A DNA stretch of 64,000 nucleotides from Theristus sp. LFF4_11 (lineage: Eukaryota > Nematoda > Chromadorea > Monhysterida > Xyalidae). Shown here piece by piece: positions 5,458-64,000 of the stretch. Made by a program: the position numbers and the translations under genes. The notes under the pieces are model-generated. The model saw only the letters and a list, made by a program, of their open reading frames with translations. It was not told the origin of the DNA and searched no databases. Position 1 is the stretch's first letter. Every line of letters begins with the position of its first letter. The stretch covers positions 1-64,000 of the forward strand of contig JASANC010005831.1 in the NCBI GenBank assembly GCA_030248135.1. The letters run 5' to 3'.

Positions 5458-6135
5458 TCAAGCGTTCATCAGTTGACTTTCAATGCGTCGGTTGTGCAGT
5501 CGAACTGACTTTTTGCGTTGCGTTGCCAATTCTTCTGCTTCGATCAGTTTTATCATGCGGGCAGCGAGGTACATTTGATAGGTGAGAATGGGTGTGAGCA
5601 CGCCAATGAGGACACAAGTGCTGAGCACACGACGCAGAGTCGAGATGTCATCGGTGGTCTTGTCGCGGTGGCCGTCGTCGATGCTGCCTGCGATGGCGAT
5701 GTAGGCAAGCCCGATCAGCAGAATCAACACGATCGTGACGATGTTGCTGACGACGTGCAACAGCACGAACAGCTGCAATTGCGTGCACCAGTGCAACGTC
5801 ACCAACAAGGCATGATCGATTTTTTACTTGTTTTCTCAAAAGTGCGAGCAGTTTTCTCAAAAGAAATCAACAATCAACAACATGAAAAATTGTACCCGTG
5901 ACTTTTTGTGCACGCCAACAAACAATGACACCGTCGTGGGCAATTTCAGTAGCGCAACAATGAGTGCAGCAAAACAGATGGGCGTTGGGATGAGTTGGTT
6001 TGTCCAGACGAGGAAAATGGCATAGATCGCTGCGAGACCAAGGATCGCCTCAACCACGGCAAACACACGGAGACCCTGCGAAATGTGGCAGCAGCAACAT
6101 CGCTCGCGTGCCGCTGATGTACCGGAAATAACCAT
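5458..6135 (-). CDS. four-helix integral membrane protein, possibly LAPTM-like
   Basis: Two exons, 5896-6135 and 5458-5772, are joined by a 123-bp GT-AG phase-0 intron and give 184 residues. The start is ATG 6135; the upstream GTG in frame is not used. A Cys-rich segment RCCCCHISQG precedes four hydrophobic helices at roughly residues 25-45, 52-75, 81-108 and 125-150. A charged Arg/Lys/Glu tail follows. The Cys cluster before helix 1 and the four-span layout resemble lysosomal-associated transmembrane (LAPTM/DUF7027-type) proteins, which sit in late endosomes and lysosomes. I cannot confirm the family from sequence alone. The stop lies 58 bp from the MITE at 5140-5400. Confidence 0.6.
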
Positions 6136-6139
6136 CGCA

Positions 6140-7120
6140 TGCGCCCCGTCGTTTTTATGACGCGTCACGGATTGTTCACGAAGTGTGGCTGTTTAGTTGT
6201 TTTGGTGTGTGTACTGAACAGCAATGTACTTCTCGCGCTAAGTGCTGCCGATTCAACTGAAAGCCAACGCAACGATGGACCGATGCACGTGTTTTCACCA
6301 CACACGATTGCAACGAATTGTGATATCAAGATCTTCTTCGAAAGTCTAATAGCGATCGTTCTACGGTCTGAATGCTTTTAACGCCATCGTTGTTTGGTCA
6401 AACGATGAGCCAACCTGTCAAAATCAAATATGCCCATTGGAAACGAAACGCATTTGCAACCGGTGGTTAAAGCAAAACAACGTTGACAGCTTGTTTCCGG
6501 ACTTCTGCATAATTATTCGGCATAATAAAGCCGTCAAAAAATGATGTTAAAATGGGCAAGTTTTTAATAGATGCGACCAAGGGGCGTCAACCAATCAATT
6601 TCACCTTTAAAATTGACAGAGGCACAAGCGTTTTTGAACACACAACCAAAACTTGAAAAGGGACAAAAAACTTCAACAAGCAGCTGAGCAAGGATCAAAC
6701 TTTTACGTATTCAGCGCACCGGCAGGAGAATTTCTTGCAAAAAAAATAAAAGTGTGCAAGGATGAACTGAATGGAAATTTACGCGCACTGCTCAATGACG
6801 AATTGTTTGCGGAGTGAAGATGAATGGGCGAACACAGAGACAACAAAAGTGGCCATAAAGTTGCGCTCGAAATGATTGAATGGGGCACGTACGCGTGCCT
6901 GATACGCTCACTGGCACACACAAGGCCAGCCATAACTCAAACCGAAAAAAACACGCACGGAAAGCACAGCCGACTGACACAAAACCGATTTCTTGTAAAA
7001 TTACAGCTGCTGCACCACATTGCTGTGAAACAGTTGAGACAATAAATGTTTGCAAAAAAATGAGACACACAACGTGCCCATTTGAAATAATTCGGTTTAT
7101 TGAAATAACAAGTTTCAGAT
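6140..7120. other. intergenic, no supported feature
   Basis: AT-rich DNA upstream of the four-helix membrane protein gene. It probably holds that gene's promoter, but I see no recognisable element. Short open frames here show no domain and no splice context. Confidence 0.4.
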
Positions 7121-32326: not shown

Positions 32327-33641
32327 TATAGCCCGGGATGGTTGATTTTGTGAGAATTTACTGCTTTTGTTCGCTGATGTTTTACCCAGACTATAAGATC
32401 TGTCTGTGGTAAAACACCTTCGGCAGTTCTGCCTGGTGTCCGTCGCACTGACGAGCCAGGGGACACCGCGGTATGCGTCTACCTGGCGAAACCGCAAACA
32501 GCGAACTTCATGTATTGTATACGCTCGCAAAACACCGGGTCCCTTGTGGCTTTATAGCCCGGGATGGTTGATTTTGTGAGAATTTACTGCTTTTGTTCGC
32601 TGATGTTTTACCCAGACTATAAGATCTGTCTGTGGTAAAACACCTTCGGCAGTTCTGCCTGGTGTCCGTCGCACTGACGAGCCAGGGGACACCGCGGTAT
32701 GCGTCTACCTGGCGAAACCGCAAACAGCGAACTTCATGTATTGTATACGCTCGCAAAACACCGGGTCCCTTGTGGCTTTATAGCCCGGGATGGTTGATTT
32801 TGTGAGAATTTACTGCTTTTGTTCGCTGATGTTTTACCCAGACTATAAGATCTGTCTGTGGTAAAACACCTTCGGCAGTTCTGCCTGGTGTCCGTCGCAC
32901 TGACGAGCCAGGGGACACCGCGGTATGCGTCTACCTGGCGAAACCGCAAACAGCGAACTTCATGTATTGTATACGCTCGCAAAACACCGGGTCCCTTGTG
33001 GCTTTATAGCCCGGGATGGTTGATTTTGTGAGAATTTACTGCTTTTGTTCGCTGATGTTTTACCCAGACTATAAGATCTGTCTGTGGTAAAACACCTTCG
33101 GCAGTTCTGCCTGGTGTCCGTCGCACTGACGAGCCAGGGGACACCGCGGTATGCGTCTACCTGGCGAAACCGCAAACAGCGAACTTCATGTATTGTATAC
33201 GCTCGCAAAACACCGGGTCCCTTGTGGCTTTATAGCCCGGGATGGTTGATTTTGTGAGAATTTACTGCTTTTGTTCGCTGATGTTTTACCCAGACTATAA
33301 GATCTGTCTGTGGTAAAACACCTTCGGCAGTTCTGCCTGGTGTCCGTCGCACTGACGAGCCAGGGGACACCGCGGTATGCGTCTACCTGGCGAAACCGCA
33401 AACAGCGAACTTCATGTATTGTATACGCTCGCAAAACACCGGGTCCCTTGTGGCTTTATAGCCCGGGATGGTTGATTTTGTGAGAATTTACTGCTTTTGT
33501 TCGCTGATGTTTTACCCAGACTATAAGATCTGTCTGTGGTAAAACACCTTCGGCAGTTCTGCCTGGTGTCCGTCGCACTGACGAGCCAGGGGACACCGCG
33601 GTATGCGTCTACCTGGCGAAACCGCAAACAGCGAACTTCAT
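32327..33641 (+). repeat. 226-bp tandem array, six units
   Basis: Five complete units and a sixth of about 187 bp begin at 32327, 32553, 32779, 33005, 33231 and 33457, with almost no divergence between them. Each unit predicts several hairpins on the plus strand: TTTTACC with GGTAAAA, ACACC/GGCAG with CTGCC/GGTGT, and GGTGTCC with GGACACC. Each also contains the hammerhead-like core described separately. The array is bounded by AT-rich element sequence on the left and ends abruptly at 33641. The 82-codon minus-strand ORF repeated in every unit has no recognisable domain. Confidence 0.95.
32444..32495 (+). ncRNA. candidate hammerhead-type ribozyme core, rearranged order (one per 226-bp unit)
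   Basis: Pieces seen in unit 1: stem I' CGCA 32444-32447; core CTGACGA 32448-32454; stem II GCCAGG 32455-32460; stem III' GCGGT 32468-32472; cleavage nucleotide A 32473; stem I TGCG 32474-32477; stem II' CCTGGC 32482-32487; GAAA 32488-32491; stem III through C 32495. All pairings are Watson-Crick: I 4 bp, II 6 bp, III 5 bp. In known hammerheads the substrate segment (III'-UH-I) never lies inside the stem II loop. Here it could act across neighbouring units in a multimeric transcript, giving ordinary type III topology, or fold as a pseudoknot. The core identity follows the hammerhead consensus; activity is inference. The same core recurs at 226-bp steps to about 33625. Confidence 0.55.
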
Positions 33642-33775
33642 TTATTGAACGTGCTGCCCTGGAAACCAATAAAAGCGAAATTTATTTGATTTGAAACAAA
33701 AAAATTGGATAGCATTGGGTGGCAAAAATGGCAAATTGGGTTGGTTGTATGCCCGAAAACAGCATTTTAGGCTGT

Positions 33776-34531
33776 AGGTCGATCCGGTACCGGTCGATCC
33801 GGTACGGTCGATCCGGTACCGGTCGATCCGGTACCGGTCGATCCGGTACCTGGCAATTTTCTAGGGCGGTCGATCCGGTACCAGGTCGATCCGGTACTCG
33901 GTCGATCCGGTACCAATTGAAATTTTCAGCTGTTTTACGGGTTTTTAGCGTTCTCGTTATGTTTTCGATTTTTCTTTGTTGATTGTTGATACGATTGTTG
34001 ATGATACGATATGAGACGACGACGACTTGCGACACTTGGTTGGTTTTGGTAATCGTAATCTGATTCTGAAAAAAGCAAAACAAGTGTACCATATGTTTTT
34101 TTTATTTTCTGAACTATTTTCCAGAAGAATAAAGCTCCAAGACGGTGAAAATTTGCAAAATTATCAGCTCAGCAAGAAAAGGAGAACAAAATAAAAATAT
34201 GAAGACTGATTCGGTTCTCTTTTGGAGTTGAAGAAAAATGTCTGTTGTTTTTATTTTCATATTCCCGCAAAAAAACCTGCGGTAAAATGTTTCAGACATC
34301 AGATAAAATGATAGAAAGAAGAAACGAAGAAAAATGGAAAACAAATCAGAAACAAATTGAATTGAATGCTAAAACAGTTGAAAATTGCCAGGTACCGGAT
34401 CGACCGGTACCGGATCGACCGGTACCGGATCGACCGCCCTAGAAAATTGCCAGGTACCGGATCGACCGGTACCGGATCGACCGGTACCGGATTGACCGTA
34501 CCGGATCGACCGGTACCGGATCGACCGCATG
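33776..34531. mobile_element. inverted-repeat element with GGTCGATCCGGTACC minisatellite arms
   Basis: Left arm 33776-33914 is a tandem of the 15-bp unit GGTCGATCCGGTACC, interrupted once by a TGGCAATTTTCTAGGGC segment. Right arm 34390-34531 is the same series reverse-complemented, including the interrupting segment. The spacer is about 475 bp, AT-rich and non-coding. Same architecture as 19401-20293 but an unrelated unit. Confidence 0.65.
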
Positions 34532-40214: not shown

Positions 40215-43200
40215 TCAGACTGTGCTGCCAGGTGAGCTTGCATTGAGCACCACGTGGCCGGCAGCGTGCTGCTCCATGTCCTCATCAAACTCGTCAAGCG
40301 CGTGCGTCCGCTGGTGCACGTCTGCTTGCTTGGTGGCCGTTTGCTGCGCTCTCACAGGCAGCACTGACGTTCGCTCAGCACTCGACTGCTTGCCCATGGG
40401 ACGCATGCCGTTGAATTGATGCTGTGTGGATGCCTCTGGGTACTCGGTGTGCCACTGGGACGTGGCTGGCAGCTGCCAAGTTCGTTGTTGGGTCAGTTGA
40501 GTTGTGTACGCTTGAGCAGCGACCTTGCTCACTGGGGCGGCTGTGTACGCATACGGGGCTGCAGCGACGGATGAAGAGACAGAGCTGGATGGTGCACTCA
40601 GCGGTGACAGAGACGGTGGCCCAGAGATGTATGAGGACATCAGCGGTGCCATGGGACGCTGAAAAAAATAGTGCACTCTTGCATTTGCTCATTTCGTGAT
40701 GTAACATTGTTGCACAAATGTACACGTACGGTATGGCCGATTAAACATGGCAGCTTTTTTCAGGGTTCAAGGAGCGCGCGAATTTTGAATGAAAGAAAAA
40801 AAGATGTTCAGAAACCAAACTGCGTGCCTAATTTTACACGTTTTTGAAAACCAATGGATTATCCGCGCTTTTCTGTGCATTCTTTCTCCCTTGCACACAT
40901 GATTGGGAATTATGTTGGCATTTCTGAAAAAGACAACTCCTAGCCTGCGACTGATCGCGCCTTGATGGACTGACTGCCTCATTTATTCGGCCGTACTGTA
41001 CACTGATGCAGCTAACGTGTGAACCCAGATTTGCACTCACAGTGTTCAAGCGCAACGGTGCCAAATGCTTTGGCTTGTCAGGGGGTGCTTTTGTGGTTGG
41101 CCTGGTGGCCCTCCAGTATGACTCAAGGAATTCAGCCAAGTGGTCGCAAGCGTCCTCCAGTTGGTTTTCGTCGAGTATCACATCAAAAAGTTCCTGAAAA
41201 CGTTTTTCTGTAGAACACGAATTTGGCATAAAAAACACCTTGCATCGAAAGAAAAACACAGTTCAATATAATGTCAAGTTGGACACTCAATCAGCGTCGT
41301 TGCACTATATCAACTAATTGACGAGTCCACACTCCACATGTGGATCAAATACAATAGGTTTGAAACTTTAAAATGCGACTCACGAAAGGACACTGCGCGA
41401 GTTTCTCTGCAGCCACCATTTGAACGTTCATGTTGCGCGACTGCGACTTGCCGCGTGTCTTTATCAACCGTTGCAGCACTTTGGGGGAACTGATTTTAAT
41501 GTAGACAATAATGGGTGCCAAAGAGGTTTTGGCCAGCTGCGAAGGGTGGTTGATGGTGTCGCAGTCAAGCACCAGCAGCTGCATCGACCGCGCCAACTCA
41601 AAGATGCGCTCGATTTCGGCTTGCACGTCCGCTGCAACAACAAATCAGGGCATTGCTTTCTGAACGGCCCACTGACACAGACAGACACTCTCATTGCCCA
41701 CAGCACGCAAAGCACAAACTGAAATATCCACAAGCCAACTTCATCAAAGTGCTCCTGCTAAAAGCACTGAAGATTTCAGAATTAACTAGGTAATCATTAA
41801 GCCAAATTCTCAGGTTGTAATTTCAGTAGGCTTATCAGGGTCGTTGGTTTCTACATTGTATGATGTTACTGTGAGACCAGTCAGTGTTGCTGATGTTGCT
41901 GCTCCTCACATACTATTGTTGCTGATGTTGCTAATACTCACATACCAAATGTTGCTGATGTTGCTACCACTCGCATACCAGTGTTGCTGATGTTGCTAAT
42001 ACTCACATACCAAATGTTGCTGATGTTGCTAACACTCGCATACCAATGTTGCTGATGTTGCTAATACTCACATACCAATGTTGCTGATGTTGCTAATACT
42101 CACATACCAAATGTTGGTGATGTTGCTAATACTCACATACCAATGTTGCTGATGTTGCTAATACTCACATACCAATGTTGCTGATGTTGCTAATACTCAC
42201 ATACCAAATGTTGCTGATGTTGCTAATACAGGGTGTCCCAAAAAAACATAACAAAAGTAAAGGGCTCGTGCGGCCGACTGGTTGCACGTGAAGCCGTGAA
42301 ATTTGAAACACTTTCAGAAAAAAGGAACACATTTTGTGTGTCCAAATTTTATCCCGAAATTCCATTTTTTCAATAATATTTTAGCAGAAATGCGTAAAAA
42401 CTCAAAAATTACCTAACTTCAGCATTTTGACTCAGGATAATCATCGTTGTCGTCATCGAGATTCACATATGACAGTGGCGCAAGTTCATCTTTAGCTTCG
42501 TCTTCACTGATCTCATCAGATTTTCCCTCTCGACCCTTTAGTTTCACTTTTTTCAGCAGTCCAATGTCTTTTTCATTGTTCTCAATGATTGCCGACATTT
42601 GATGTTCGAAATTGATGAGCAATTCTGGTGCAGCGCCCGATCATCGTTGATTTTTTGCACACCACTGCGAATTTTGGTTTTCAAATTGTCGAAAATGTTA
42701 GGCGCCGAACGGTACACAATTTCCTTCAGGTGCCCCAAACCCATAAGTCAAGAAGAAAATTGAAACAAGTGCGCGAGTGGCTGTCGGCGTCGTTCGGTGA
42801 CCGCTGGATCGGCCGCATGGGCAGAATTGAATGGCCCGAGAGGAGTCCGGACATGAAGCCTTTGACTTCTGCGTTTGGGGGCATCTGACGGATAATGCGG
42901 GACATTTTCGGCGCCCACCACTGCAGCAGTGTGAGAAAAAATCATCGATGATCGGGCGCTGCACCAGAAAGTGATCATCAGTTTCAAACATCGAATGTCG
43001 TCGTTCATTGAGAACAATGGAAAAGACATTGAGCAGCCGAGAAACATGAAACTGAACGACCGTGAGCATGAACATGATGACATCAGTAAAGTTGAAGCTG
43101 ACGATGAGCTTGTGCCACTGCCAGATGAGATTCTCGGTGACGACAATGATGTTTATCTTGAGTCAAAAAAACTGAATTTAGGTGATTTTTGAGTTTTTAC

Positions 43201-47289: not shown

Positions 47290-49380
47290 TCAGGTTTTTC
47301 ATTTTTCGTTTTTAGGCCGATTTCTCCTATGCCATTTCTACGGCCGATTCCCCAAAATCGTCACGATTCAGTACCTAGAATCGCTCACAAAAGAAAAACT
47401 GACCCAAAAGCCGTGATCGGCGTAATGAATTACCATGGAAAACACCGTTTTCTTGTTTTTCATTTCTGGACCGGTTTCGCTAAATTCCACGGCCGATTCA
47501 CCATAAATCGTCACGATTCAGTATCTAGAGTTGCTCATACAAGAAAACTAACCCAAAATCCGTGATCAGCACATTGAATTACCCTGGAAAAACCGTTTTC
47601 TCGTTTTTCATTTCTGGACCGATTTCGCCAATTTCCACGGCCGATTCGCCCGAAATCGTCACGATTCAGCATCTAGAGTTGCTCGCGTAAGAAAACTAAC
47701 CCAAAATTCGTGATCAGCGCATTGAATTACCCTGGAAAACACCCTTTTCTTGTTTTTCGTTTCTGGACCGATTTCGCCAACTTCCACGGCCGATTCGCCC
47801 GAAATCGTCACGATTCAGCATCTAGAGTTGCTCACGTAAGAAAACTAACCCAAAATTCGTGATCAGCGCATTGAATTACCCTGGAAAACACCCTTTTCTT
47901 GTTTTTCGTTTCTGGACCGATTTCGCCAATTTCCACGGCCGATTCGCCCGAAATCGTCACGATTCAGCATCTAGAGTTGCTCGCGTAAGAAAACTAACCC
48001 AAAATTCGTGATCAGCGCATTGAATTACCCTGGAAAACACCCTTTTCATGTTTTTCGTTTCTGGACCGATTTCGCCAACTTCCACGGCCGATTCGCCCGA
48101 AATCGTCACGATTCAGCATCTAGAGTTGCTCACGTAAGAAAACTAACCCAAAATTCGTGATCAGCGCATTGAATTACCCTGGAAAACACCCTTTTCTTGT
48201 TTTTCGTTTCTGGACCGATTTCGCCAACTTCCACGGCCGATTCGCCCGAAATCGTCACGATTCAGCATCTAGAGTTGCTCACGTAAGAAAACTAACCCAA
48301 AATCCGTGATCAGCGCATTGAATTACCCTGGAAAACACGCTTTTCTTGTTTTTCGTTTCTGGACCGATTTCGCCAACTTCCACGCCCGATTCGCCCGAAA
48401 TCGTCACGATTCAGCGTCTAGAGTTGCTCACGTAAGAAAACTAACCCAAAATCCGTGATCAGCACATTGAATTACCCTGGAAAAACCGTTTTCTCGTTTT
48501 TCGTTCCTGGACCAATTTCGCCAACTTCCACGGCCGATTCGCCCGAAATCGTCACGATTCAGCATCTAGAGTTGCTCACGTAAGAAAACTAACCCAAAAT
48601 TCGTGATCAGCGCATTGAATTACCCTGGAAAACACCCTTTTCTTGTTTTTCGTTTCTGGACCGATTTCGCCAACTTCCACGGCCGATTCGCCCGAAATCG
48701 TCACGATTCAGCATCTAGAGTTGCTCACGTAAGAAAACTAACCCAAAATCCGTGATCAGCGCATTGAATTACCCTGGAAAACACGCTTTTCTTGTTTTTC
48801 GTTTCTGGACCGATTTCGCCAACTTCCACGCCCGATTCGCCCGAAATCGTCACGATTCAGCGTCTAGAGTTGCTCACGTAAGAAAACTAACCCAAAATTC
48901 GTGATCAGCGCATTGAATTACCCTGGAAAACACCCTTTTCTTGTTTTTCGTTTCTGGACCGATTTCGCCAACTTCCACGGCCGATTCGCCCGAAATCGTC
49001 ACGATTCAGCATCTAGAGTTGCTCACGTAAGAAAACTAACCCAAAATTCGTGATCAGCGCATTGAATTACCCTGGAAAACACCCTTTTCTTGTTTTTCGT
49101 TTCTGGACCGATTTCGCCAATTTCCACGGCCGATTCGCCCGAAATCGTCACGATTCAGCATCTAGAGTTGCTCGCGTAAGAAAACTAACCCAAAATTCGT
49201 GATCAGCGCATTGAATTACCCTGGAAAACACCCTTTTCATGTTTTTCGTTTCTGGACCGATTTCGCCAACTTCCACGGCCGATTCGCCCGAAATCGTCAC
49301 GATTCAGCATCTAGAGTTGCTCACGTAAGAAAACTATCCCAAAATCCGTGATCAGCGTATTGAATTCCTACGGACTAAAC
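47290..49380. repeat. 149-bp satellite array, about 14 units
   Basis: Tandem copies with a constant 149-bp period (for example ATCTAGAGTT at 47671, 47820, 47969 and 48118). Most units are over 95 percent identical. Sequence variants recur in blocks, which implies segmental duplication inside the array. The first units at the left are more diverged. No open frame is conserved. Confidence 0.95.
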
Positions 49381-51274: not shown

Positions 51275-54200
51275 TCACTGCACTGCGTCGCGCAGAAAAA
51301 ACGCTGTTCCGGCGATCAACCACTTTGCCGATTCTTTATCACACGGCACTTGAACGTTGAAGACAAGCTGCTCACGGCTTTGGTTGTAATAGACGGGCAA
51401 CGTCACTGAGTTCGTGAACGCATCAGGTGTGCTCTGTAAAGTTTTGTTTCTGTTCAGAACGTTCACTGGTTCAGGAAAGCTGCATGCGCTCACCTCGTGC
51501 AGCCAGGCGATGGTGAGCATGGGCGCTGCGTGCACTGGCGGCGAATTGTGCGTCGCTTCACGCAGGGTGTTGCCATCGAACAGAGCTCCTTCTATTTGCA
51601 GGCCCACCAAGCGCACGCTCACCGATGCACCCGCAATTCGTGCGTTGTTCCAGTACGAGGCGACACGCAGACTGTCGATGCTCGTCTTCATTTGCCTGCA
51701 CATTCGCATCAGCATTTTGCATCTATTTCACATTGTTCGCGCAAAACACGCCATCAGAGTCGCACCTCGCCGTGTGCTGACGGAATGCATTCAAAAACGT
51801 AGCAGGGCGAAACAGTTCGGACAAGTCCAGCGGTTCTCCGGACGAGAGCAGCGTGTCAGTGAGTGCCTTCTCTGCCCACCGTTGCACCGCAAGCGCACGA
51901 TGCATCAGCAACGTTATGTAACTCAACGGCTCAGACGGGCCCTCCCACAAACGTAGCCATTCCTCAGGAGTCTGCACAGTCAAACTCAAACTATAGACAG
52001 TCAGCTGATTCGCTGCAAGCCCCGCCCCGCGCATTGAGTCTTGGGACCAAAATAAAAGATTAGTTAACGAAACAACCAAGTTGTGAGATTGAAAAACAGC
52101 AATTCGCAAAAGCCCACTTTGTGACGCATGAGTGACTGAGCCAGTTTACGGGTAGCGAGCGTCAGCACCGCAGTTCCACGGATTGCACGACTGAGTGCTG
52201 CTAAATGCTGGTGCACTGTCTGCAAAACGGGATATAAAAAGCTCAAAATTGATTGGTTAAACAGTTGCTATCACAAGCACACAAAAAATGTTGACAAATT
52301 TGTTTGAGTGACTGGTGGAACAGATTGACGTTGCTGACCTGAACCAAAGCAACGGCATTGCATCTTTCGAGCAGTGCAAACACGTTCACTGGATTTATAC
52401 TTTCGTCAGTGGATTCATTTGGCATTGCAATTGATTCTGTGTGTAGTTGACGGCCCTGCAACAACATCATAAACACAACATCAGAACACCATTGACGTTT
52501 TGTGCCACAAACTTGGTTCAATCTCTTCCACGTGTCCAACAACGGTTTCAACGCCTTGGTCCACAGTTCACGATCAAACTCGCTCACTGAAACTTCCGCC
52601 GTCCGTAACTGAAGCAAGGACATGTAAATGCTAACAAAGAATTTTGTTGAGTAAGTGCTAAGTAAGCAATTTAGTGGTAAGCCAAGAAATAAGCAATAAG
52701 CAATAATGTTTTTTAATGTTTCTTTTGTAACCAGTGCGACCATGCGCGCACCTGTCTGAGTTGTGCGAGCACCCGTTTTGCCGCAATCATTTCCCAGCTG
52801 CGAGTAATGTTTGCCGGTAATCCGAATGCTTTCGGCGGGTCTTCGTCAGACATTGACTCAATGACGTTCAAAAATGCCTGAAGTAATACAGTAGCCCCAT
52901 GCGAACTGTCTGAAATGTACGAAAAGCGCCATACCTCGTAGCTGGCCACCGGTGGCAACTGGACGTTGTCGGCAATTTGCAACTTTGACCTGCCACCGGG
53001 CGTCAGCAGATCGTCATTGAATAGATGCGTCAGGTAAGCGAGCAAAACGCGCATGTCAAACTCGTTGTCTATACGGCCTCCATAGATTGCGTTTCCCATC
53101 AAACCACGCACATAATCCCACTGAACTGTTGTACCTTTCAATCAGAAATAACAATGGTGAAATTCACAGTAATTTCTTGTTACAAGAAATGCTTCAAGCG
53201 ACAAACGAATGTTGACGTGAGACCGTGTGTTTTTGATGTTTCGCCAAACAATCCATCAATGACGTGATAGCCCGCTCGAATGTCCGAGTAGTTGAACTCG
53301 TAAAATTTCGACCATCCCTGTGGAATGAAGGCACGTCGTTCCTGGCAAACTGCGTGGAACCAAGCCAACGTGAACAGCGACTGGCACCGCTGCACGCTGC
53401 GCCCACGCTCGACGGTGCTGCTGCCCCACCCGGCGTACGTGCGCAGAAGGTTGCGTTTTATGCCAGGCGGCGATTCGTACGCAACCTGAAACAGTTCACC
53501 GATTTCTTAAGAACACTGCTGCGAATGTGAGATTACAACAATTGATGTTTAACAAACACAGTAGAGCTTTTTTACTTTCAGACAATTCTGCAAGAGCAGC
53601 ACCGGAAATTTTACGTGATGCTCTGTTGTAAGCCACAGACGAAAGTTGTCATGCGGTTGCAGTGTTTCCAGTTCCTGGAAAGTTCCACAAAAGCGTTTTA
53701 CAGAAAGAATCAATGTGAAACTAAAGACAGAAAACAACTTTTTGCAATTCGGACAGCCACGCGACGACGAGATGCAAGTTTTTCAAACAGAGCCACTCGC
53801 CGGACGCAGCACAGCGACGCAGCAGCTGCACGGCCAAAGGCTGCTGGCCCTGGCCCATCGGCACCTGGTGGTACTGTCTGGCGCCTACTGTCGCGTTCGC
53901 AGCTTCCTCCAGCTCTTCCGACGGGTCATAGCCAGCAGTCGTTATCAGCAACACAGGGTTCACACACCGCGTTTCTTTGGCAAGCGCAGCAAAATCAAGT
54001 GATGACGGGGAGAGGCTAGGTACTCCTAGAAATCCAGATTGTGCTCGTTTCAACTCAGTAACTCTATTTTTCTAAATAAAACAGCGTTCATCACAAAAAT
54101 TTGGAATGACACACACAATGACACTATGACACAAAGAAAAATGACACAATGACACACCCAAAGCCCTTTCAGTAAACAGCTCCATGGCTGAGTGCAGTCG

Positions 54201-57200
54201 ATCGGGTCGAATCGCTTGGATGACCAGTAATTTTTGAAACGAGCTCACTTTTTGATCCAAAACTGACGGAAATTGTTGCTCACATTGGGTTTTGGAACGG
54301 AACTCTGACCAAACACTTGTTTCATCAAGCCGCAATGTGTTGTAGAGAGACGGAAAATTAGTCTGAATTCACAGAAAGATTTTTTGTATGATCTTTTGTG
54401 TTGGTCCCGATACTCAATGCGCGCATAGACAGGCAAACAGTTTCATGCATGACGCGGTAATTCAAAATTGGCAAAGTGATCCGAGTCCCCTTAATAGGGC
54501 AGAGTCACTTGCGCGATTTTGAAATGCCGCATAAACACTGAAACTAGTTTCCTTTCAACGTCTGCGTATGCAATGAGTCGCAGATTCTAAAAATTGATAA
54601 TATTTTCGGATGAATCACATAATGTTTCATATCAACTAGCACTCACTCGAAGGGCAGCTGTTGCTGGCTTTTGCTCATCGTCAATCCAAGTTGGCAAGCC
54701 GGATGTGTTGATGTTTTCGCTGCCGATTTCACGTGCAATCAAACCAACAAACGTTTCCCATTCCTAAATCAACAAAGGATCACATGGCAGACAACTGAAC
54801 AATGTTTTAAAATCTATTAAGCTGTTGAACGTGCAAAAACGTTTGTAGTTCAGCTTTACTTGAGATTATGTACCACTAACATGTTCTTTGAACAATGCCG
54901 GAAACATGCCGTGCACCATGTGCATGCCAAACATCAATCGATCAACTTTGTACAGAGATCGGCTGACATAATCGAAAATCAGCCGCTGCAAACCAATACC
55001 GAGTGACTTTATTGCAAAGTCACTTGTTGCAGCATTTCCTTCCTGAAATCAGTTGTGATTGAAAAATTTGCTGTTTACATGAGTAAAAAACAATTTTTTT
55101 CGACCCTTGTCAACCTTGGTTTGTTTCAATGTGCGCTCAAACAACATCGTTATTGCAGACAAACTGAACCGGTACATGTGATTGATTTGATTCAGTTCTT
55201 TTAAAATGAAGTACAATCTGCTGCCCGTATCGGCCAACGGCAAGTAGATGTTTCGTTCCTGAAAAGTAGATGACATTGTAAGTTTTAAAGTTTAAAAACG
55301 CCAGGTCTGTGCTGGTTTGTATTCATTTTAAACGACTGGTAAGAGCGATATTCTCCTGATTAACGTCATTTAATGTACGTTCGTCAACACTGTTTTCTCA
55401 GCTCAGAACACATTTGTACCACTCAACAGACGTCTGTAAAAACCTGCGTCTCATAAGTGCACCAATCATCATTATTCTAAAAACACTACCACCAGCCTGT
55501 TCAAGAGATTTTTGCAAGGTTTCAGATTCTGCGAGTGACTTGACGACCATTTCTGCGTTTTCTTTTGCTTTGTTCAGTGAATCTAGTAATTCTTTGTTTT
55601 CAAGTAAATTGCCGCTTGAATCAGCCAGTTGATCAAGTAGATTCTGCTCCAGATGATCCAGTTCAATTTTCATTGTTTCCTCGTTTCGTAACAGTTCTTT
55701 GTTTCGTGCTTCAAGTTCTGGTTTTTCATGCTGTATCGCAAACGCAAGCAGCTGCAAAACAACATGAGCTAGCTGAAATGATTCATTTGTCTGCTTGTTT
55801 TTCATTTTACTTTGTCGCGAACCTGAGAAGTCAGTCCGGACCGAGTGATGGTAAAATTCACTTGGTTCACAATCGCAGCACCGTCGGGGGGCAAACGCAA
55901 GCTTGCATCTTGTGTGCAAAGGTATAGCTGGAAATCTTCGTTGTAATCGACTGCTTTTTCCCCAATTTGAACAACGTATCGAGGACCTAAAAAGCTATGC
56001 CATACGCGACCAAGAATTTGCTTCGTTGGTTCTCACACTGGACTGGAACATCAACAGCCAACTCCAATGCATTTGCGTTGAGCCAAAAATTTTTCGGACA
56101 TTTTACGCATGTATCAAAACAACTGTGTAATTCTCTTTTGGTACATGCTGAATTACTCTTGCATTTTTTCTGAAGCGAAACGTTTTTTCCCAAACGAAAT
56201 GCGAAATGCGTTTTACCGTGACTGAAGCGGTCTCCTCTTAACAACGCATACATCGATGGCTCCAGTTTCGTTACTCCTGACACAATCAATGTTTTACCAA
56301 ATCGAACGGCGAGTTCAAGTTGCGTTGTGAAATTCGCATCCTGAACCGATGATTTTTTCTCAACATTTTTATTATCACACCTGTTTATAAAAGATATCAA
56401 CACACAAACCATTTGGTTAACAATTTCTACTTTTTGAGATTTGGTATGGTTTTTCAGCCACTGTATAGCACGCGATGATGGATCGACAATTAGCGGTATC
56501 TGTTGCGACTGGAAAAAGACAACTGCTGGCAATCATTAAAATGTGAATCAAAAAGTCAGCTTCTATAAACGGAAACTTCATCAAAACACAAACTTTTAAC
56601 AGCGCGCTTACGTTCAGAATGATGACTGCGTTGTCCATTGAAAGTGCGTCATCGGGAAGCTGCTCTGTTTTCCATTGAAGTTGCTCCGTTTCCGAGCTCA
56701 GCATTCTGCATTTAATGGATGAATTTCGCCATTTTAAAAAACTTGTGAACTGCGTGACGTTTCGCAGAAAACCAACTTCCTCAAGCTGAATTCACTGTGG
56801 CCGACGATCGTAGTCCAATCGTTCAGACAACTCTGGCGATCTTCTTCCGTAGCGGAGCCAAGAAGCGTGATGTAGGCAGCAGCTAACAATGCAAGTGTCG
56901 GCAAATTATCCAACGACTGCTTCAGCTCAGTCATCTGCAAATTTTAAATTTAAACGAACCACCGCACCAACTTTTCTATTACGGATCACCGTTTCAGTAA
57001 TTCTGCGTTGTTTACCTGATCATTCCATCGTTTGTATTCGCCCTCGAGTCGATTGACCAACGTCGATGCAACACTGATTGTTTCCTGCTCTTTGTCAAGG
57101 TCGATTTTAATTTGTGTCGCCTCTTTTGTGAACTGCTCGAAACGCGCGCGCAAGTCAGCAACCTGTGTATATTGAATGGAAACATATACAAAAACTAAAA

Positions 57201-62814: not shown

Positions 62815-64000
62815 GTACGGTATCCTATGTAATCGACCATGCTGCGTCTGATAGGCTAGGTGCCGAATTGTGAAAAAACTGTTTTTACCCGTGCCGGGTA
62901 TAAAAAGTGTGCCCGTTAAGGGGTTTCCTGGTAAAAATCGTTGTTCTAATTTCATATTCCACGGTATTCATGTAATCGACCATGCTGCGTCTGATAGGCT
63001 AAGTGCTGAATTGTGAAACATTGTTTTTTACCTGTGCCGGGGTTGAAAAGGGTACTGTTTTTACCCGTGCCTGGTATAAAAAGGGTCCCCGGAAGGGTTT
63101 CCTCCTAAAAAACGTTGTTCTGATTTCAAATTCCACGGTATCCATGTAATCGACTATGCTGCGTCTGATAGGCTATAGTTTAGGTGCCAAATAGCAAAAA
63201 GCTGATATTTACCCGTGCCTGGGTTGAAAAGGGTCCCCGTAAAGGGTTTCCTCCTAAAAAACGTTGTTCTGATATCAAATTCCACAGTATCCATGTAATC
63301 GACTATGCTGCGTCGGATAGGCTATAGTTTAGGTGCCAAATAGCGAATAGCTGATATTAACCCGTGCCTGGGTATAAAAAGGGTCCCCGGAAGGGTTTCC
63401 TCCTAAAAAACGTTGTTCTAATTTCAAATTTCACGGTATCCATGTAATCGACTATGCTGCGTCTGATAGGCTATAGTTTAGGTGCCAAATAGCAAAAAGC
63501 TGATATTTACCCGTGCCTGGGTTGAAAAGGGTCCCCGTAAAGGGTTTTCTCCTAAAAAACGTTGTTCTGATTTCAAATTCCACGGTATCCATGTAATCGA
63601 CTATGCTGCGTCTGATAGGCTATAGTTTAGGTGCCAAATAGCGAAAAGCTGATATTAACCCGTGCCTGGGTTGAAAAGGGCCCCGTAAAGGGTTTTCTCC
63701 TAAAAAACGTTGTTCTGATTTCAAATTCCACGGTATCCATGTAATCGACTATGCTGCGTCTGATAGGCTATAGTTTAGGTGCCAAATACCAGAAAGCTGA
63801 TATTAACCCGTGCCTGGGTTGAAAAGGGTCCCCGTAAAGGGTTTCCTCCTAAAAAACGTTATTCTGATTTCAAATTCCACAGTATCCATGTAATCGACTA
63901 TGCTGCGTCTGATAGGCTATAGTTTAGGTGCCAAATAGCAAAAAGCTGATATTAACCCGTGCCTGGGTTGAAAAGGGTCCCCGTAAAGGGTTTCCTCTTA
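62815..64000. repeat. second 149-bp satellite array, runs off right edge
   Basis: At least eight tandem units. The word ATGTAATCG recurs at 63144, 63293, 63442, 63591, 63739 and 63888, a 148-149-bp period. The sequence is unrelated to the 149-bp satellite at 47290. Leftmost units are more diverged and contain indels. If the dynein gene continues to the right, this array is intronic. Confidence 0.95.

Follow-up and report, generated by a model that had tools for sequence, protein, structure and literature searches.

The window and its repeat array

The window analysed in this study, meaning the whole stretch of 64,000 nucleotides, harbors dynein heavy chain exons (AAA_9, AAA lid and C-terminal domain) on the reverse strand at 51275-56532, with cytoplasmic dynein 2 indicated by the names of 4 of 40 matches, as well as a weak, sub-threshold match to the terminal part of a guanylate kinase domain on the same strand at 40834-41259. 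Two long tandem arrays with 149-bp periods were observed at 47336-49366 and 63063-63997, comprising 13.6 and 6.3 copies with 94-95% matches. On the forward strand, Tandem Repeats Finder disclosed a further array at 32327-33647, consisting of a 226-bp unit in 5.8 copies with 99% matches, which is the subject of this analysis. By alignment to the unit, the array begins with a 5'-truncated first unit, continues with full units and terminates at the 3' end of the element (...TTCATTTATT) at position 33646. A preceding sequence-only reading had placed it at 32327-33641; this start is retained, while the element runs 5 bases beyond the end then given. Just downstream of the array, at 33777-33914 and 34391-34527, short arrays of GGTCGATCCGGTACC and its reverse complement lie about 480 bases apart.

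Every unit displays the parts of a hammerhead ribozyme in the order CGCA-CTGACGA-GCCAGG, GGACACC, GCGGT-A-TGCG, TCTA and CCTGGC-GAAA-CCGC. In the first unit, the 5' strand of stem I (CGCA, 32444-32447) is followed directly by the core block CTGACGA, or block C (32448-32454), and the 5' strand of stem II (GCCAGG, 32455-32460). The 5' strand of stem III (GCGGT, 32468-32472) precedes the predicted cleavage site, between A32473 and T32474, which is the UH position adjoining stem III in the hammerhead core. The 3' strand of stem I (TGCG, 32474-32477), a four-nucleotide linker TCTA from stem I to stem II (32478-32481), the 3' strand of stem II (CCTGGC, 32482-32487) and block G, composed of GAAA and the 3' strand of stem III (GAAACCGC, 32488-32495, with the stem III strand at 32491-32495), complete the arrangement. 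The core block starts at 32674, 32900, 33126, 33352 and 33578 in the other units, where cleavage is predicted after 32699, 32925, 33151, 33377 and 33603. The coordinates of the first unit and the predicted cut after A32473 agree with those of the sequence-only reading.

The window was scanned for the hammerhead core in this strand order, with stems I, II and III required to pair over 4, 5 and 4 bp, respectively. Exactly six matches were returned, one per unit, and none on the other strand; stem II has a sixth pair and stem III an A-U pair that were read from the sequence, outside the constraints of the scan. The core elements CUGANGA, GAAA and UH are present, and the three stems flank the core directly and are paired, in 6/6 units, as had been claimed. 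The same core and stem pattern was absent from both strands of 20 Mb of random sequence, generated by an order-1 Markov model with the composition of the window, in line with the earlier view that chance co-occurrence is very unlikely. Searches with Rfam at gathering and relaxed thresholds detected no hammerhead or other ribozyme in the array, and Hammerhead_1 gave no match in the genome, the controls being equally silent.

Read from 5' to 3', the blocks stand in the order C-S-G, and the non-circular strand order that had been reported for this array is thus upheld by the coordinates of the first unit. The accompanying claim that such an order is not seen in the known types does not hold. Blocks C, G and S and their six possible orders were defined by Eckert et al. 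2023 (PMC10085705), who describe two type-CSG sequences, CSG-1 and CSG-2, known from metagenome DNA only and with modest covariation; both cleaved in vitro where a hammerhead would be expected to, with rates of 0.004 and 0.026 per min.

Folding within and between units

The unconstrained RNA fold of 32365-32520 has a minimum free energy of -63 kcal/mol (z = -5.7), a stability reached by none of 200 shuffled sequences. It consists of P1 (GTTCGCTG/CAGCGAAC, strands at 32369-32376 and 32499-32506), which closes the ribozyme domain, a long accessory hairpin P2 (32378-32416), a small GGCAGTTCTGCC hairpin (32422-32433), P3 (GGTGTCC/GGACACC, strands at 32435-32441 and 32461-32467) and P4 (GCGGT/ACCGC), the last being the hammerhead stem III. 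The loop of P3 reads GT-CGCA-CTGACGA-GCCAGG and that of P4 reads A-TGCG-TCTA-CCTGGC-GAA, and two blocks of the one match two of the other, CGCA being complementary to TGCG (stem I) and GCCAGG to CCTGGC (stem II); kissing of the two loops would therefore build the full hammerhead core within one unit. P3 would tie stems I and II to each other at their outer ends, and together with the UCUA linker it would hold these two stems side by side.

The sequence-only reading had offered two ways of folding, namely a single-unit pseudoknot presented by the hairpin GGTGTCC/GGACACC and an ordinary hammerhead formed only between tandem units. Our modelling favors the first, with a P3 probability of 0.98 and complementary loops, and disfavors the second. 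In RNA of two units, local P4 had a probability of 0.97 in both families of the repeat described below, and P3 had one of 0.98 in family A and 0.84 in family B, while forcing a nested hammerhead between units cost 13.9 kcal/mol in family A and 18.3 kcal/mol in family B relative to the best fold, with the same values for both topologies. The folding model has no pseudoknot term and leaves the kissing fold itself unscored, and so these values support the single-unit reading without proving it.

A geometrical difficulty attaches to the single-unit fold. The outer end of P3 joins the outer end of stem III with zero linker in 26 of 27 aligned rows, the remaining row having four additional bases. 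For a few type-SGC RNAs, Eckert et al. (PMC10085705) remarked that such a direct link is difficult to square with the crystal structure of the hammerhead. Three ways out can be envisaged: opening of the outer pairs, bending back of the helices, or a ribozyme formed between neighbouring units, in type III or type I topology, in which each core serves the site of the other unit and the monomer is inactive. The same strands permit this last arrangement, in which the strain between P3 and stem III would vanish, and axolotl retrozyme hammerheads are described in PMC7229834 as cleaving better in dimeric constructs; nevertheless, we consider it rather unlikely in view of the energetic cost of the nested inter-unit folds and the strong local P4 in both families, both being estimates from a model that does not score pseudoknots.

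Genomic copies, their ends and their conservation

The repeat is extensively dispersed in the genome. BLAST with one unit returned at least 190 matches, and a short pattern of the site plus GAAA was found at 931 places compared with 21 for the reversed pattern. A composite pattern, in which the CTGANGA block, the site and GGCGAAACC were combined, gave 656 matches (327+329) against 0+0 for its reversed control, being a test of sequence and not of all pairings. Site halves with a different first base exist among the genome matches, and the spacer is usually 14-15 bases long in this repeat. A search for relatives in phage and plasmid collections gave no match. Pattern matches in viral contigs (0 and 12 loci in two scans) and in prokaryote genomes (2 loci) were taken as chance, since stems I and II are never fully paired in them: among the 13 motifs scored, the best reached 3/4 pairs in stem I and 4/6 in stem II, and one locus (L111) held no scorable motif.

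Through a unit of locus L040, 73% identical over most of the core, we recognized a second subfamily, family B, which follows the same design. Its stem I changes from CGCA/TGCG to CGTA, facing either TGCG, which gives U-G and prevails in the fetched loci, or TACG, which gives U-A, so that C-G, U-G and U-A all occur at one pair among the copies, and its stem II changes from GCCAGG/CCTGGC to GCCTGG/CCAGGC, one A-U pair becoming U-A. P3 measures 7 bp in family A as against 6 bp in family B, and when the families are placed in register by hand, all six pairs are kept through three double changes, with one double change each in stems I and II. In family B the linker is CTTA, P1 consists of other letters (GCACTGTTTC/GAAACAGTGC), and the stretch matching P2 still forms a hairpin. 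At the sequence level, the fold is thus kept in both subfamilies, changes in one strand of stem I, of stem II and of the joining helix being compensated in the other.

For a quantitative comparison, 26 distinct P3-P4 sequences (27 rows, including one duplicate) were selected from the fetched loci by an expression requiring CTGANGA and CGAAA but not the stems, and are therefore uninformative on the conservation of the core. Paired cells made up 94.8% of the total and 96-98% of each stem, with 90% for P3 in the automatic alignment, which misregisters family B. Cells changed on both sides numbered 22, compared with 5.2 in shuffles, none of 500 of which reached that value, and fell to 0-1 when partners were slid. 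Distinct pairs with double changes numbered three, and as many were reached by 105 of 500 shuffles; the rows represent chiefly two subfamilies, hence few independent covariation events. Stem III is unchanged in family B and shows no covariation among these 26 sequences. The compensatory changes that had been anticipated in diverged units are consequently present in stems I and II (one pair each) and in P3, and are missing from stem III.

The ends of the copies were studied in the window and in loci L031-L098, where 62 distinct insertions could be bounded and two more, cut by the locus ends, were left out. These loci were picked from the best-scoring matches, and some copies look later-duplicated (two in L038; L073 and L074; L040 and L071), so the sample is not random. 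At the 3' side, 57 of the 62 insertions end at one place of the unit, represented in the window by 33637-33646, with 47 of them exactly at the unit end and seven more within three bases; three insertions are a 222-bp form in which the alignment stops eight bases early and the sequence goes on with GTATT. The other five end elsewhere. By comparison, the 5' starts are scattered over all quarters of the unit (10, 11, 10 and 8 in family A; 5, 9, 6 and 3 in family B), although position 1, the start assigned to several family A arrays, is in part artefactual, as the preceding bases still resemble the unit end. Two or more units were present in 27 of 39 family A insertions, and fewer than two in 21 of 23 family B insertions. 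Unit length ranged from 222 to 233 bp, and no LTR was noticed in passing. The flanks mostly differ among copies, and the longest runs shared by the flanks of 52 insertions averaged 5.21 bases as against 4.69 in shuffled pairings of flanks (maximum of 300 shuffled means, 5.06), a weak signal with no constant offset. By eye, the 3' flank of one array (L037) begins much like the 149-bp satellite at 47336.

Within arrays, units are highly homogeneous, with an identity of 0.995 across the 25 arrays having at least two full units, 13 of which consist of identical units only, whereas units of different family A arrays have an identity of 0.962 (253 pairs, nine of them identical). Units were cut for this comparison at an intact CTGACGA, and damaged units are thus excluded. 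One array (L045) is unlike the homogeneous ones, its units differing from each other (mean identity 0.94) and several having damaged cores or stems.

The shared 3' end and the scattered 5' ends point to a retroelement rather than a mere satellite, and the earlier description as a satellite is apt for the array form only. A ribozyme as proposed might still have been propagated as a satellite of the usual kind, through unequal crossing-over or rolling circles of DNA; tandem arrays of near-identical units, the identical unit pairs from different arrays and the carriage of at least one array (C1465, locus L038) by local duplication would all be expected of such a history. A single 3' end in so large a share of the insertions, together with scattered starts and mostly different flanks, would not, and we regard this explanation as unlikely.

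When the two subfamilies are compared, 47 of the 54 columns of the ribozyme part (GTCGCA to GAAACCGC) are identical, as against 113 of 191 in the rest of the unit (Fisher p 9e-5). Within family A, 48 distinct units were collected by BLAST with no motif requirement, one family B row being left out, and eight of them carry a change at one or two of the 12 core positions. Changed cells amounted to 9/576 in the core, 9/384 in stem I, 14/576 in stem II, 7/384 in stem III, 23/672 in P3 and 66/2928 in the whole P3-P4 domain, as well as 48/2352 in the inner P1/P2 region, which excludes the first and last 20 positions, padded with flank. Conservation of the core thus did not measurably exceed that of the inner P1/P2 region in family A (p 0.61), which makes the copies look like recent, drifting insertions. 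An apparently stronger conservation of the ribozyme in this family (6.0% vs 1.6%) stemmed from the padded unit ends and disappeared without them. That the repeat holds a structured hairpin domain of a retroelement, for example a reverse transcriptase binding site, whose likeness to a hammerhead arose by chance or is left over from a ribozyme now inactive, would suit the very stable local fold, the so far only predicted cleavage, the core changes in 8/48 units and a core conserved no better than nearby sequence within the family, but it is very unlikely, given that core, stems and site together are absent from the 20 Mb of random sequence, that the loop-loop stems I and II covary, which a plain hairpin domain does not need, and that none of the 13 similar motifs elsewhere is fully paired in either stem.

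Relation to known ribozymes and a model of mobilisation

With reference to the literature, the present repeat shares with CSG-1 and CSG-2, as described in PMC10085705, the order CUGANGA, site and GAAA, stems I-III with two pseudoknots, an additional helix that connects stem I with stem II, and the cut at the site expected of a hammerhead, which was shown for theirs and is predicted here. It differs in that CSG-1 and CSG-2 are two similar metagenome sequences of no known host, whereas the present ribozyme is part of a larger P1-P4 domain in a tandem mobile repeat, with hundreds of copies in the genome of an animal; the likeness described here concerns the architecture. Type-SGC RNAs (HRIMA-1), first found in metatranscriptomes according to the same paper, likewise exhibit a non-circular permutation, a short linker between stems I and II, an extra helix and pseudoknots, but their order is site, GAAA and CUGANGA. 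In pseudoknotted hammerheads of types I-III (PMC3088659), base pairing also keeps stems I and II parallel, although the core is one of the three circular permutations and the pseudoknot lies outside it. We found no further paper on a type-CSG hammerhead ribozyme, nor any report of the CSG form in an animal, in the literature searched, whose coverage leaves out most subscription papers and preprints. The topology is known; new, within the scope of these searches, are the animal host, the family of genomic copies and the setting in a retroelement.

Metazoan non-LTR retrozymes, as PMC7229834 describes them, are also short tandem repeats (about 150-450 bp) with one hammerhead per unit, no LTR and dispersed copies, for which a circular RNA intermediate and a reverse transcriptase acting in trans were proposed. 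Their hammerhead is of type I and their GC content is below 50%, as compared with the CSG order and GC contents of 50.4 and 54.1% here; accordingly, we call the present repeat retrozyme-like and do not file it among the metazoan retrozymes. The shared 3' end with ragged 5' ends is demonstrated here.

Wnt family genes gave 30 matches in the genome, all above the cut-off, and none in 14 control genomes. Wnt genes are an animal marker, and we conclude on this ground that the genome is that of an animal; the control genomes, as named in the GIY-YIG search, are all prokaryotes, so the conclusion rests on the known restriction of Wnt genes to animals.

Taking together the parts, the pairing, the covariation of the subfamilies, the copy number, the ends and the array homogeneity, all observed at the sequence level, we propose, with a probability of about 0.72, that the repeat is an animal mobile element, non-autonomous and retrozyme-like, with an RNA that would be self-cut once per unit by a type-CSG hammerhead. 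In the mechanism we envisage, hairpin P3 would present CGCA-CUGACGA-GCCAGG and hairpin P4 (stem III) would present A-UGCG-UCUA-CCUGGC-GAA, the two loops kissing through stems I and II to form an ordinary hammerhead core. Cutting of multimeric transcripts after A32473 and at the equivalent sites would release monomers, which a host RNA ligase would close into circles; a reverse transcriptase supplied in trans would then copy these circles. Copying of such circles into tandem cDNA was proposed for animal retrozymes in PMC7229834. If copying were primed at one fixed spot of the circle, corresponding to the 3' terminus, proceeded for one or more rounds and stopped anywhere, this would explain the single 3' end, the ragged 5' ends and units that are alike within arrays but different between them. 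The shared 3' end lies 43 bases from the predicted cleavage site, and because the predicted cleavage and priming points are both exact to the base, the circle-copying model is directly testable in this repeat.

Natural non-circular ribozyme permutations were reported in 2023 (PMC10085705). The hundreds of dispersed, diverging animal copies place such a permutation in a biological context, offer plenty of material on which covariation and cleavage can be tested, and suggest that a permuted pseudoknot fold can serve a mobile element, with an RNA that would likely cut itself, circularise and be copied back into the genome. On balance, we are also inclined to the broader view that, in an animal lineage, a whole class of circular-RNA retroelements may be built on this pseudoknotted, non-circularly permuted hammerhead, which would provide type CSG with its first host, genomic family and biological role, and in which reverse transcription would be primed at one fixed point of the circle.

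As to the source of the enzyme, at least 150 reverse transcriptase matches were detected in the genome. Matches to the GIY-YIG domain occur at 56 places. Many of these lie in open frames about 870-1060 aa long, certain of which recur in several copies with the same length, and we take these multi-copy frames to be compatible with Penelope-like elements. They are a possible donor of the enzyme, as putative Penelope-like elements. The C1465 array was considered as part of a reverse transcriptase element and rejected as such, as it sits inside a LINE-like coding region and is locally duplicated. At this locus (L038), 941-1496 and 5589-6146, units cut to about 137 bp, with block C missing, lie upstream of one longer unit, and the array, located inside the LINE-like endonuclease/reverse transcriptase region, has been duplicated along with that region.
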